Positions 12,688 through 28,711 of a stretch of DNA of 34,026 nucleotides are shown here, piece after piece (positions within the stretch are counted from its first letter, which is position 1; each line of letters begins with the position of its first letter). The notes under the pieces are model-generated. The model made no database searches, had not been told where the DNA came from, and saw only the letters and a program-made list of their open reading frames with translations. Made by a program: the position numbers and the translations under genes. The DNA is from Thermovirga sp. (GTDB lineage Bacteria; Synergistota; Synergistia; Synergistales; Thermovirgaceae), in the NCBI RefSeq assembly GCF_017656375.1, contig NZ_JACDOB010000016.1, positions 1-34,026 of the forward strand, given 5' to 3'.

Positions 12688-12913
12688 TTTTTTTCACTCC
12701 CTTCTCTCTTTCTATATGTTTTATATATTGAAAAACTTAGTAGGTCTAGTAGCAAGTATGTGTTTTTTGTGGAAAACACAAAAAAAAGAGTAATAGCAAA
12801 GAAAAAGCATGTGGAAAAATAAGTTTTATGTTGTGGGAAGTTTTCCACAAAATGAACATCTTAAAATAATACTCTTTTTTAGGTGTCTATTTTTCCACAA
12901 AAAAACACCTTAT
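12688..12913. other. dnaA-dnaN intergenic DnaA-box cluster (part of bipartite oriC)
   Basis: Non-coding and A+T-rich. Contains four exact TTTTCCACA boxes: two on the minus strand (12768-12776, 12810-12818) and two on the plus strand (12841-12849, 12891-12899), plus a TTATCTACA variant at 12910-12918. The 12832-12851 stretch is a near-perfect inverted repeat around one box. The match to the DnaA box consensus TTWTNCACA is direct; origin function is inferred. Confidence 0.65.
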
Positions 12914-14239: not shown

Positions 14240-14569
14240 AAAAACCTCCCAGATAACCTGTAAAAATACGAAGATTAAACTTTTCCACGGAGAGCATGAA
14301 TAATTTTACCACAAATAATCCACAAAAATTATCCACATATTCACAGAAATGCGCATAACATATGTGGAAAAAAAATCCTTACAAGTAGGGCTTTTTTCGA
14401 TATGTCTTATCGGCATGTAGAAATGACTAAAATTGACCTAAAAGATTTTAAGTGGTTCTATGAGAAATCCACAATTTTTCCACATATGTGGAAAAACGTG
14501 TTTATTTCCTTACTTTGAATTTGGTGTATCATTTAAATGTAAAGAAAACTTATCCTGGAGGGAGATACT
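14240..14569. other. oriC candidate: DnaA-box cluster upstream of dnaA
   Basis: 330 non-coding bases between divergent dnaA and the DHH gene. Boxes: one perfect TTATCCACA (14329-14337), TTTTCCACA at 14363-14371 (minus), 14476-14484 (plus) and 14487-14495 (minus), the last two forming a 20-bp palindrome. A further box at 14583-14591 falls inside the next gene. Variants TAATCCACA (14316) and AAATCCACA (14465) fill in. The A+T-rich stretch between about 14375 and 14470 could serve for unwinding. Gene polarity flips across this block, supporting an origin. Confidence 0.75.
14303..14311 (-). promoter_or_regulatory. Extended -10 element, candidate dnaA promoter
   Basis: Minus-strand TGG-TAAAAT, a TGN-extended -10, placed about 60 bases before the dnaA ATG. 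No good -35 is visible at 16-18 bases. It is surrounded by DnaA boxes, which would give autoregulation. Confidence 0.35.
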
Positions 14570-24682: not shown

Positions 24683-24868
24683 CTATCTCCTCACAAAACT
24701 GGCCTAATAGCCAGGAATATTTTTGACTGTAGAGTCGAATCAAAAGGGAAGATTCACACTGCCATTATTGTTTCAGAAAAGAGACCAAAGAGTATCGGGG
24801 TAATTACCTAGTTAGAGCTAAGACCTCAGAATAATTATACTACCTAACGCACAGATAGGACATGCCGA

Positions 24869-24884
24869 TGTTTCACGTGAAACA
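24869..24884. promoter_or_regulatory. parS site 1
   Basis: Perfect 16-bp palindrome TGTTTCACGTGAAACA, identical to the consensus chromosomal parS bound by ParB. Lies between the AsmA-like gene and the thermonuclease gene, about 2.9 kb from parB. Confidence 0.95.
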
Positions 24885-24897
24885 TATAACACGAAAA

Positions 24898-24913
24898 TGT
24901 TTCACGTGAAACA
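24898..24913. promoter_or_regulatory. parS site 2
   Basis: Second perfect TGTTTCACGTGAAACA, 29 bp centre to centre from site 1. The pair would act as the nucleation point for ParB spreading and SMC loading near the origin. Confidence 0.95.
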
Positions 24914-24942
24914 TTACCTCATGTGTGTGGATAAGTGGAAAC

Positions 24943-24990
24943 AAACGTGGAAAGGTTTGTGGATTTGTGGATATTTCAGTGGACAAGCTG
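24943..24990 (+). pseudogene. Possible relic of a second parB (N-terminal fragment)
   Basis: Plus-strand codons 24943-24990 read KRGKVC-GFVDISVDKL, against KQDKACDGLVDISVDEL at ParB residues 25-41 (27896-27946). With one codon gap, about 35 of 48 bases match and most differences in the core fall at third codon positions. The similarity stops after this stretch and no ParB domain follows. A relic of a parB duplicate beside its parS sites is the simplest reading; chance in a TGTGGAT-rich region is the alternative. Confidence 0.35.
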
Positions 24991-25030
24991 TCAGGTAGAT
25001 GTGAAAAGCTTATGGAAAAGTGTTGTTGTA

Positions 25031-25816
25031 TCATAGCTCAACGTCCAAGATTTGGATTGGGTCTGCCAGTTTCATTTCTCCGCCAAAATAGCTTACTCTC
25101 AGCTTGCCTGCTGCTTTTATCTTGAGGCCTTTTTTGAATTTCAAGTGAGAGAACCTGGGAAGATCGTCTTTATATATCACAAGCCTCATGTGTCCCTTAA
25201 GGTCAATCAGGGATAGTCTTGTGGATGATTGCTTTATGTCCTGGATTGTAAGTTTTAGCGTTATGAATTTTCCGGATAGTGTGGGAAGTTGGCTCCATGC
25301 TTGCTCTGATGTGAAAACTCTCTGGAAGGCCCTACCCCAAAAGCCCCTTTTTCCCTTGCGGGCTAGTCGGAAGGCTTTTATTATGCGGTCTGTATATTTC
25401 ACGTTGGGAGCCAGGGTGAAAGGCATTGCAAGGCCGTTTCTTGTTATTATTTCGTTTACCAAAAGGAACCTTTCCCCCTTTTTGAGCCATACCCAGGCAA
25501 GGGTCCTTCCGTATTTGTCGCGGGGTTGCACGTCCAGCTCAAGGAATACGCGTTTTTTAAGGACTAGCTCGGCGTTAAAGGCCGCTGCTATCTTGCCGAA
25601 TTCCTCTTCGTGCCTTTGGGGGTGATGTAGCTCAGGAGTGTCTATTCCCAGATATCTTACTTTTCTGATGGTTCCGTCAGGGATAGTAACCCTTACTGTA
25701 TCACCATCGTATACATTGGTAACAAAGGCTTCCTGCAGAGAAGCTTCCGCAGGAAGCCCTATGAGCAGGTGTGCTATCAGTAAAACTGCAAGAAAAAGCG
25801 CTGGTATGTCTCGCAT
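25031..25816 (-). CDS. Secreted thermonuclease-like protein (SNase domain plus OB-like tail)
   Basis: 261 residues with an N-terminal signal sequence (about 1-26). The SNase domain (about 28-165) keeps the staphylococcal-nuclease active-site set: YDGDTVRV with Asp37/Asp39, the Arg54 and LGIDTPE motif with Asp59 and Glu62, and the Arg104 in DKYGR. Residues about 175-255 look like a second OB-type domain (VIYKDDL, LKIKAAGKLRVSYFGGEMKL). It is probably an exported Ca2+-dependent nuclease acting on extracellular DNA for nutrition. Its ATG (25816) overlaps the preceding gene's stop in a TAATG junction; the ribosome site is weak, so translation depends on the upstream gene. Confidence 0.85.
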   Translation of the reverse strand: MRDIPALFLAVLLIAHLLIGLPAEASLQEAFVTNVYDGDTVRVTIPDGTIRKVRYLGIDTPELHHPQRHEEEFGKIAAAFNAELVLKKRVFLELDVQPRDKYGRTLAWVWLKKGERFLLVNEIITRNGLAMPFTLAPNVKYTDRIIKAFRLARKGKRGFWGRAFQRVFTSEQAWSQLPTLSGKFITLKLTIQDIKQSSTRLSLIDLKGHMRLVIYKDDLPRFSHLKFKKGLKIKAAGKLRVSYFGGEMKLADPIQILDVEL

Positions 25817-26364: not shown

Positions 26365-27078
26365 GTGAAAATCATAGAAATTAAAGCAGAAATCTCCATG
26401 GATGACATCATGGAGGAAATCGAAAAAAACAAAAAAGCCCTTAAAGCTTATGCTGAAGTTTTATCAGCTATGAATTCTACTTCAAGACTCACAGGGGAAA
26501 GAGACCCTTCTAAATTATGGGAGGAGCATATACTGGATTGTGGCTTTTCCTTACCTCTTATTCCTGAGATAGGCAGTGTAGTGGACGTTGGAACAGGTGG
26601 GGGCTTGCCTGGGATACTTTGGGCTATATGTCGTCCCCACCTCAAGGTATATCTCCTTGACAGTGTGCGTAAAAAGTGTGGCGCAATAGGGGAAATAATA
26701 AGAAACTTGGGACTGGAGAATGCTTTCGTGGTATGCGACAGATCTGAGGCCTTTGCGGCGGAAAACCGCGAGAAGTTCTCTGCCGCGGCCACCCGTGCAG
26801 TGGGACACCTTGGCGTTTGTGCTGAATATATGTCTCCTCTAGTGATGAAGGGGGGGCGCCTTCTTTGTTTTAAGGGGCCTAAGGTAGCTGCTGAACTTGA
26901 AGAAATAGGCGAGACGTGGCATCATTTAGGCCTTTCAAAACCAGAGATATATTCTTATAGGCTCGGCGAAAAGAAATTGTTTTTAGTGGTGTGGAAAAAG
27001 GAGGAACATTGTCCTCCAACATTTCCTAGAAAACCTGGACGTGCGCAGAAACTGCACTGGTGGAGGTGTGTTCGTTGA
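26365..27078 (+). CDS. rsmG: 16S rRNA (guanine-N7)-methyltransferase RsmG (GidB)
   Basis: SAM-dependent methyltransferase modifying G527 of 16S rRNA; loss can give low-level streptomycin resistance in other bacteria. 237 residues, with the SAM-binding loop VVDVGTGGGLPG at 72-83 and the LLDSVRKKC segment that follows. A basic tail ends the protein (KPGRAQKLHWW). Start is GTG at 26365 with AAGGGA eight bases upstream; an internal ATG (residue 12) has no ribosome site. Its TGA overlaps parA's TTG start by a TTGA junction. The rsmG-parA-parB order is widespread near bacterial origins. Confidence 0.93.
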   Translation: MKIIEIKAEISMDDIMEEIEKNKKALKAYAEVLSAMNSTSRLTGERDPSKLWEEHILDCGFSLPLIPEIGSVVDVGTGGGLPGILWAICRPHLKVYLLDSVRKKCGAIGEIIRNLGLENAFVVCDRSEAFAAENREKFSAAATRAVGHLGVCAEYMSPLVMKGGRLLCFKGPKVAAELEEIGETWHHLGLSKPEIYSYRLGEKKLFLVVWKKEEHCPPTFPRKPGRAQKLHWWRCVR

Positions 27079-27845
27079 AGGCTGTTGCTGTTGCTAATCA
27101 AAAAGGCGGGGTTGGGAAAACTACCTGCTGTGTAAACCTTGCCGCTGAGTTAGGTCGCAAAGGGAAGAAAGTGCTGGTTATAGATATTGACCCTCAGGGG
27201 AACAGCACGAGTGGTTTGGGAATAGATGGCAAGGCAGTGAAAAAGAATATTTATCACCTGGTGCTGGACAAGGCAAAACCTAAGGATGTAATAATTCCTA
27301 CCCAGTGGGAAGGCGTATGGGCTTTACCTGCGACGCTGGATCTTGCAGCTGCTGAAGTGGAGCTCGCAGGGGTTATAAGCCGGGAGACCAGGTTGGCAAG
27401 ACATCGTGGAGCCTTTAAGGATTTCGATATAGTTTTTATAGATTGCCCACCTTCCTTGGGGCTTCTGACGGTGAATGCCCTTGTGGCAGCAGATACTATC
27501 CTTGTGCCCCTTCAGTGTGAATATTATGCACTGGAGGGACTAAGCCAGCTTATGCGCACGGTAACTTTGGTGAGGCGCTATCTTAACGAAGGCTTGGACG
27601 TGGGAGGATTGGTTTTGACCATGTTTGACGCCAGAACTAACCTTGCAAAAGAGGTGGCAGACGAGGTTAAAAGACGGTTCAATGACATTATTTTCGAGAC
27701 CATAATACCTAGGAATATTCGCCTTTCTGAGGCGCCGAGCTACGGAAAGCCTATAGGGTATTATGATCCTTCCAGCAGTGGAGCCAAGGCTTTCAGTAGT
27801 CTGGCGGAGGAGGTAATAGAGCGATGGCTCGGAAAAAGGCCTTAG
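27075..27845 (+). CDS. parA: Chromosome partitioning ATPase ParA (Soj)
   Basis: Deviant Walker-type ATPase that, with ParB-parS, segregates the origin region. About 256 residues, the compact chromosomal type without an N-terminal HTH. The deviant Walker A loop QKGGVGKTT is at residues 9-17, with IDIDPQGNSTSGL after it and the Walker B-like DIVFIDCPPSLG further on. TTG 27075 is chosen as start because GGAGGTG lies six bases upstream and it forms a four-base overlap with the rsmG stop; GTG at 27060 or 27066 would extend it into rsmG without benefit. Confidence 0.93.
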   Translation: MKAVAVANQKGGVGKTTCCVNLAAELGRKGKKVLVIDIDPQGNSTSGLGIDGKAVKKNIYHLVLDKAKPKDVIIPTQWEGVWALPATLDLAAAEVELAGVISRETRLARHRGAFKDFDIVFIDCPPSLGLLTVNALVAADTILVPLQCEYYALEGLSQLMRTVTLVRRYLNEGLDVGGLVLTMFDARTNLAKEVADEVKRRFNDIIFETIIPRNIRLSEAPSYGKPIGYYDPSSSGAKAFSSLAEEVIERWLGKRP

Positions 27846-28711
27846 GGCGAGGATTGGAAGCTATTTTTTCTGATAGTTCCCAGCTGGAAGAAAAAAAACA
27901 AGATAAGGCTTGCGACGGATTGGTGGATATTTCTGTAGATGAACTTCATCCAAGCCCTCTTCAGCCTAGGAAGTCCTTTGATAATGCTTCGCTGAAGTCC
28001 CTGGCGGCCTCCATAAAGGAGTGTGGGGTCATACAGCCTATTTTGGTGAGGCATTCAGATGGCAAGTACGAGATAGTAGCAGGCGAAAGGCGTTGGAGGG
28101 CTGCGAAAATTGCGGGGCTTAAGACGGTTCCTGTCAAGGTCGTAGCTGCAGATGACCTGTCCGTCATGGAGATATCTCTGGTAGAAAACCTTCAGAGGGA
28201 GGATCTTTCTCCTATAGAGGCTGCTTTGGGTGTTCAGGAGCTTATAAATAAGTTTTCCCTTACTCAGGAACAGGCGGCCAAAAAGCTTGGATGGAGCAGG
28301 GTAGCTGTCACTAACAAGTTGAGGCTTTTGAACCTGCCACAGCAGGTTTTGGAATACTTGGGAGGCGGTAAGATAACGGAAGGGCACGCAAGAGCCCTAC
28401 TTTCCTTAAAAAAAGAAGAGGATTGCTTAAGGCTGGCTCGCCTTGCGGCTGAGAAAGGCCTTTCCGTAAGGGAACTTGAAGATGCTGTGAGAAGGACCTT
28501 GGCTTCAGGAACTTCCAGAAAGAAATCGATAAGGGTCATGGAGGTTCCGGAGTCGGCAAAGCGCTTTGCCGAGAGGTTCGGGATAAAGGTTAAGCTGAAA
28601 GGCAGACAGGACAAGCTTCAGGTTACCCTGGATGGGCTTAGCCCTCAAGTGGCTCTGAAGCTGTTTGACTTGCTTGAGGCAAAAGGAGAGGAGCTTTTCC
28701 CGGAAGAATAA
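27824..28711 (+). CDS. parB: Chromosome partitioning protein ParB (Spo0J)
   Basis: CTP-dependent clamp that loads at parS. 295 residues: N-terminal KKALGRGLEAIF box (ParA-stimulating), then the ParB/sulfiredoxin CTPase domain from about 34. That domain includes the LQPRK motif and the arginine-rich AGERRWRAAK (86-95). An HTH region follows around 140-170 (SLTQEQAAKKLGWSRVAVTN), then a C-terminal dimerisation domain. It overlaps parA by 22 bases and has a strong GGAGGAGGT site nine bases ahead. Two perfect parS sites lie 2.9 kb upstream, beyond rsmG. Confidence 0.95.
   Translation: MARKKALGRGLEAIFSDSSQLEEKKQDKACDGLVDISVDELHPSPLQPRKSFDNASLKSLAASIKECGVIQPILVRHSDGKYEIVAGERRWRAAKIAGLKTVPVKVVAADDLSVMEISLVENLQREDLSPIEAALGVQELINKFSLTQEQAAKKLGWSRVAVTNKLRLLNLPQQVLEYLGGGKITEGHARALLSLKKEEDCLRLARLAAEKGLSVRELEDAVRRTLASGTSRKKSIRVMEVPESAKRFAERFGIKVKLKGRQDKLQVTLDGLSPQVALKLFDLLEAKGEELFPEE

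Follow-up and report, generated by a model that had tools for sequence, protein, structure and literature searches.

Here we report on two groups of predicted protein-binding sites that share one gap between genes near the replication origin of Thermovirga sp. The window that was analysed is a stretch of 34,026 nucleotides, contig 16 of a draft genome of 1.80 Mb (85 contigs, 99.2% complete). It carries, in this order, gidA-recF-dnaN-dnaA, all on the minus strand, genes for a DHH/recJ-like protein, a glycosyltransferase, a ferredoxin, an aminotransferase, a HAD hydrolase and a PALP enzyme, orf1128 on the minus strand, the gap, SNase and PCC (both minus) and the gidB-parA-parB operon (plus). The TamB/AsmA-like assignment of orf1128 (Table 1) is accompanied by a Pfam AsmA match of 1.5e-9, over the cut-off, in its homologue in a related genome (G029). 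No known RNA or tRNA genes were found in the window. The genomes of relatives used for comparison are labelled G0xx; the window genome is G000, and its genus mate T. lienii DSM 17291 (a chromosome of 1,967,774 bases and a second contig of 31,872 bases) is G001.

Table 1. Positions of genes and predicted sites in the window.
Feature	Position	Strand	Remarks
dnaA-dnaN gap, predicted unwinding half of oriC	12688..12913		DnaA-trios and box
DnaA-trios TAGTAG	12738-12743 and 12747-12752		second one 15 bases 5' of box TGTGGAAAA (12768-12776)
dnaA	12914..14239	-	TIGR00362, 8.3e-166
Predicted dnaA-upstream half of oriC	14240..14569		DnaA boxes at 14316, 14329, 14363, 14476, 14487
orf1128, large TamB/AsmA-like envelope protein, 1128 aa	21296..24682	-	TamB model 1.4e-11, below model cut-off
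Gap with parS sites and DnaA-box array	24683-25030		between orf1128 and SNase
Predicted parS site 1, perfect 16-bp palindrome	24869..24884		exact match to TGTTTCACGTGAAACA
Predicted parS site 2, perfect 16-bp palindrome	24898..24913		exact match to TGTTTCACGTGAAACA
Putative DnaA-box array	24926..24987	+	five weaker boxes of the same direction follow a perfect one (24926-24934)
SNase (staphylococcal-nuclease-like) gene	25031..25816	-	PF00565, 7.2e-20
gidB (rsmG), parA, parB operon	26365..28711	+	TIGR00138, PF13614, TIGR00180, PF17762

The original prediction placed two perfect parS sites, with starts 29 bp apart, in one gap together with a perfect DnaA box 12 bases further on, and all three sites were found as described. 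Both palindromes conform to TGTTTCACGTGAAACA, which we take to be the parS consensus of the Bacillus type, and 13 bp lie between them. Shuffled windows contained on average 0.10 parS matches at up to three mismatches, and two matches were reached in none of 100 shuffles. The pair represents the only parS with at most one mismatch in the whole draft genome, in which one more site with two mismatches was detected, the same number as with a reversed-pattern control. The palindromes are origin-proximal, some 10.6 kb away from dnaA, in a genome that contains both parA and parB, and agree in sequence and location with predicted parS sites of a ParABS system. When compared with T. lienii, site 1 is identical in 15 and site 2 in all 16 of 16 bases. 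Sites of the parS type with at most one mismatch were found in 37 of the 61 Synergistales genomes. Their position inside the gap with the DnaA boxes is restricted to G000 and G001; in other genera of the family, they occur where PALP meets orf1128 and in the parB-HIT gap, and 3.6-4.3 kb separate them from the array.

The perfect DnaA box, TGTGGATAA on the plus strand, is the first member of a larger array. Two TGTGGAT variants, which had been noted next to it, are indeed present, but belong to a set of six GTGGA motifs on the same strand (starts at 24927, 24935, 24947, 24959, 24967 and 24979), with spacings of 8, 12, 12, 8 and 12 bp, each close to one turn of the helix. Several of the boxes deviate from TTATCCACA. 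Six GTGGA in 70 bp form the densest same-strand cluster both of the window and of the 380 kb around the T. lienii origin, compared with a maximum of three in 20 Markov-1 shuffles. The array is located 3' of the SNase stop codon and 244 bp upstream of the orf1128 start, and it is identical to its T. lienii counterpart in 55 of 62 aligned bases, as against 88 of 176 aligned columns between parS and orf1128 and about half or less in the spacers (8 of 16 and 5 of 12). The DnaA protein encoded in the window aligns with DnaA chain 8btg_A through the domain-IV region and has retained the DHTT motif, which plays a role in box recognition.

The distribution of the array was determined at 38 loci with an SNase orthologue (score cut of at least 100 bits; other paralogues, second hits and a partner fragment in G005 were left out). 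An array of at least three same-strand boxes follows the 3' end of the SNase gene in 27 of these loci, representing 8 of 10 sampled families; the background frequency of similar clusters was 16 in 807 gene ends, and several of those 16 are SNase or dnaA clusters themselves. Two loci have two boxes (G017, G039), and none or one was found in the remaining nine, six in family f10 (G018, G027, G034, G041, G046, G050) and three in family f5 (G022, G044, G056). In f10, the array is missing at all six SNase loci (170 bp examined in G041), although DnaA, ParB and parS are present.

A search for GTGGA-N3-GTGGA-N6-8-GTGGA yielded 53 matches in 39 of the 61 genomes and none with the reversed-pattern control. 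The matches comprise 25 (23 genomes) that lie 12-172 bp 3' of SNase, 21 (21 genomes) upstream of dnaA, 3 located 3' of parB in genus g20, and 4 elsewhere. Their geometry differs by place, with spacings of 8+12 in 22 of the 25 matches at SNase and of 8+13 in 20 of the 21 at dnaA, and arrays of four to six regular boxes (e.g., 8, 12, 11, 12, 10) average approximately one helical turn per box. The distance between SNase and dnaA ranges from 8.6 to 154 kb in the 13 genomes (of 13) that have both on one contig. In G052, where the orientation relative to dnaA is reversed, the array is still present at an SNase gene that is 143 kb from parB. As judged by these alignments and searches, the array is conserved in geometry and position over most of the sampled Synergistales families and, unlike the parS pair, is the ancient component of the locus. 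In genus g20 (G043, G036, G055), which yielded no SNase match, an 8+11 GTGGA module occupies the parB-HIT gap, the place of parS in other genera.

The presence of DnaA boxes both around dnaA and at 24.9 kb had raised the question of which cluster is the functioning origin, to be settled by the position of the skew minimum (14.3 or 24.9 kb). In the window itself, the cumulative skew is flat from about 12 to about 26 kb. A gene-corrected skew, based on fourfold sites of the seven genes that separate dnaA from the gap, corrected for gene strand and with parameters trained on G001, gave an ambiguous result with a slight lean towards the array in G000 (-2.3 nats), so that the proposed skew test could not decide the matter locally. 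The answer came from the relatives. In T. lienii, the cumulative GC skew, computed over the 380 kb that surround dnaA, is lowest some 90 bp upstream of this gene. In G047, the minimum is at 60,075 and dnaA ends at 59,833, with the homologous array 72 kb from dnaA; in G015, the minimum is at 73,270 and dnaA at 73,688-75,007, with the homologous array 99 kb away. The raw minimum falls at 29.4 kb of the analysed piece in G023 and at 6.0 kb in G038, and coincides with neither candidate. After gene correction, the seven genes of G001 score as right arm with a margin of 9.6 nats; G047 and G001 support dnaA, and G015 is mixed, the plus-strand genes from dnaA to gidB resembling the left arm and the minus-strand genes the right arm.

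DnaA-trios point in the same direction as the relatives' skew. Strictly scored trios were found in 9 of 15 dnaN-dnaA gaps (500 shuffles: mean 0.42, maximum 4), a count to which the 13 of 15 obtained by looser scoring had been tightened, and in 2 of 27 array gaps at SNase (300 shuffles: mean 0.57, maximum 3), with the window itself below 1. At the array, there is thus neither a GC-skew minimum, judged from the relatives, nor a DnaA-trio beside a box. The skew minimum at dnaA in the relatives and the trios in the dnaA-dnaN gap place the predicted origin at dnaA and not at the 24.9-kb cluster. Despite the flat skew of the window, the lean in G000 and a density of same-strand boxes that exceeds that of either half of oriC, a functional origin at 24.9 kb is extremely improbable in view of the minima in G001, G047 and G015, the right-arm behaviour of the intervening genes in G001, and conserved trios that were not found at the array; a second origin at this position was rejected on the skew of the same three relatives and the missing trios. 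With its boxes clustered beyond chance and the skew minimum elsewhere, the array can be classed as a predicted extra-oriC DnaA-box cluster. The dnaA-upstream half of oriC contains an 8+13 module (14316-14345), which 20 genomes have conserved on the same strand as dnaA and which has a degenerate third copy here. A further small DnaA-box cluster was observed at 2652-2770, between genes for an SLAC1-like transporter and exodeoxyribonuclease III, roughly 10 kb from dnaA in the direction away from the array; in its T. lienii counterpart, TTATCCACA faces a TGTGGATATGTGGAT pair.

The array is real and conserved, and is probably a DnaA-binding control site of a known kind. The best reading, to which we assign a probability of about 0.5, is that of an extra-oriC cluster at which DnaA assembles into an oligomer and which lowers the amount of free DnaA. 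DnaA would attach to the terminal perfect box and cooperatively fill the weaker, helically phased boxes of the same direction. Because no DnaA-trio lies beside the array, such an oligomer would be a dead end, tying up or inactivating ATP-DnaA once the origin region has been duplicated, and re-initiation at dnaA would thereby be damped; for an array that lacks an unwinding element, a sink or inactivator of DnaA is the likeliest outcome, by analogy with the DnaA-box clusters of B. subtilis and datA of E. coli (PMC5295017). ParB would load onto the adjacent parS sites independently, and the contact between the two would be a lineage-specific accident or refinement. Against this reading stand the nine of 38 SNase loci that lack the array, including all six of f10, the location of the array in front of the next gene, which leaves room for a promoter role, the reversed orientation in G052 and the slight lean of the gene-corrected skew in G000; the raw skew of G023 and G038 was of no help. 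The original prediction had named both DnaA titration and the coupling of origin and segregation as possible functions; the data favour titration, and coupling is weakened by parS contact in two genomes only.

The main rival is a DnaA-responsive promoter of the downstream minus-strand gene, usually TamB/AsmA-like, by which the replication cycle would be tied to envelope synthesis. In all well-resolved cases, the array is found upstream of whichever gene follows on the SNase strand, an orf1128 homologue is downstream in 19 of the 27 array-bearing loci, and in G021, G029 and G052 only 19 bp separate the array from the start codon. Against this, the distance to the start codon (with starts assigned mechanically) ranges from -17 to 244 bp, the neighbour in G023 and G040 is an unrelated aldehyde dehydrogenase while the array is still at SNase, and SNase adjoins orf1128 in f10 without an array. 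The placement of the boxes is not constant relative to one target gene, and there are two unrelated downstream genes; regulation of a neighbouring promoter is therefore possible, yet unlikely. The possibility that the array is tied to orf1128 and nothing else was rejected because the neighbouring gene changes while SNase and array stay together. Binding of another protein, or a neutral repeat, could be argued from the boxes that depart from TTATCCACA, but is very improbable for repeats that resemble a module upstream of dnaA in 21 genomes, include perfect DnaA boxes, and are conserved above their surroundings. Moreover, the pattern is nearly missing where DnaA is missing: it was detected in 1 of 11 genomes without detectable DnaA (G026, 86% complete) and in 38 of the 50 others. 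Absence of DnaA in these 11 of 61 genomes was assessed by protein and Pfam PF08299 searches, and a weak AAA-only match in G060 was not counted.

Array-bound DnaA and parS-bound ParB might also influence each other, by ParA/Soj acting on DnaA at the array or by ParB clamps that are blocked by DnaA or displace it. The two elements are 12 bases apart and, in contrast to the intervening and flanking bases, both conserved between the two Thermovirga species. In other genera of the family, array and parS are separated by 3.6-4.3 kb, and where two parS were detected they flank the array. Contact at the base level is, however, confined to two genomes of one genus, G052 keeps the array without parABS nearby, and the control of DnaA by ParA in B. 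subtilis is, in the portion of PMC7614844 considered, independent of parS near oriC. Since the contact is restricted to Thermovirga and G052 has retained the array at a distance of 143 kb from parB, coupling is weakened as an explanation and seems very improbable; it is possible at most as a genus-specific feature. Equally doubtful is its fullest form, in which an inherited 8+12 DnaA-filament site controlling ATP-DnaA has been fused in Thermovirga with the sole centromere, filament formation and ParB clamp loading gating each other so that initiation is coupled to segregation at a 120-bp locus. The contact is a genus-level feature of uncertain meaning: its presence in both species makes it one event or one constraint, and chance could account for it, intergenic gaps near the origin being few.

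A separate observation concerns the genus of G011 and its relatives (43 genomes), in which PF08299, the DnaA C-terminal domain, was detected in 3 of 43 genomes and in 3 of 30 of high quality. The domain was not found in six members of 99-100% completeness (G011, G020, G028, G035, G042, G060), nor in G016 and G025. The genomes thus point to an apparent near genus-wide loss of dnaA. Such a loss is known in free-living cyanobacteria (parts of PMC7198777), and no report for Synergistota was found in the open-licence literature searched.

Replication-control sites outside oriC are, to our knowledge, known experimentally in few bacteria, and the open-licence literature searched yielded no description of extra-oriC DnaA arrays in Synergistota, a phylum whose replication has been little studied. 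The site, with a box geometry and a gene gap retained in 8 of 10 sampled families and up to 154 kb from dnaA, allows DnaA titration to be tested by natural comparison, and the 12 bases between the DnaA and ParB sites of Thermovirga make interference testable in vitro on one short fragment. The predicted parS sites are alike those of the Bacillus type in being 16-bp palindromes close to the origin, with a parA-parB operon about 2 kb away, and unlike them in that Thermovirga has just two, 29 bp apart, within the DnaA-array gap. The box layout of datA, which is characterised by an IHF-dependent hydrolysis of ATP-DnaA, and of DARS in E. coli differs from that of the array, and oriC-proximal DnaA-box clusters (DBCs) of Bacillus subtilis were reportedly the subject of a study by Okumura et al. 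in 2012. DnaA-trios and a DnaA box constitute the basal unwinding system outlined in sections of PMC8287927; it has its likeness in the window's dnaA-dnaN gap, where TAGTAG is 15 bases from a box, and was not found at the 24.9-kb array. In E. coli oriC, low-affinity boxes of the same direction on one helix face, beside a strong box, allow cooperative filling by DnaA (PMC4451416, in part). The Thermovirga array shares the phased same-direction boxes adjoining a strong box, but alternates between spacings of 8 and 12 instead of a constant 2-bp gap and is located outside oriC, without an unwinding element. With datA, which lowers ATP-DnaA, and DARS, it has in common that it is a non-coding DnaA-box site distant from oriC (excerpts of PMC5295017). 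According to the same excerpts, deletion of six oriC-proximal DnaA-box clusters in B. subtilis leads to early initiation; these are likewise clusters outside oriC, whereas the Synergistales have one same-direction, helically phased array, held in one gene gap across families.
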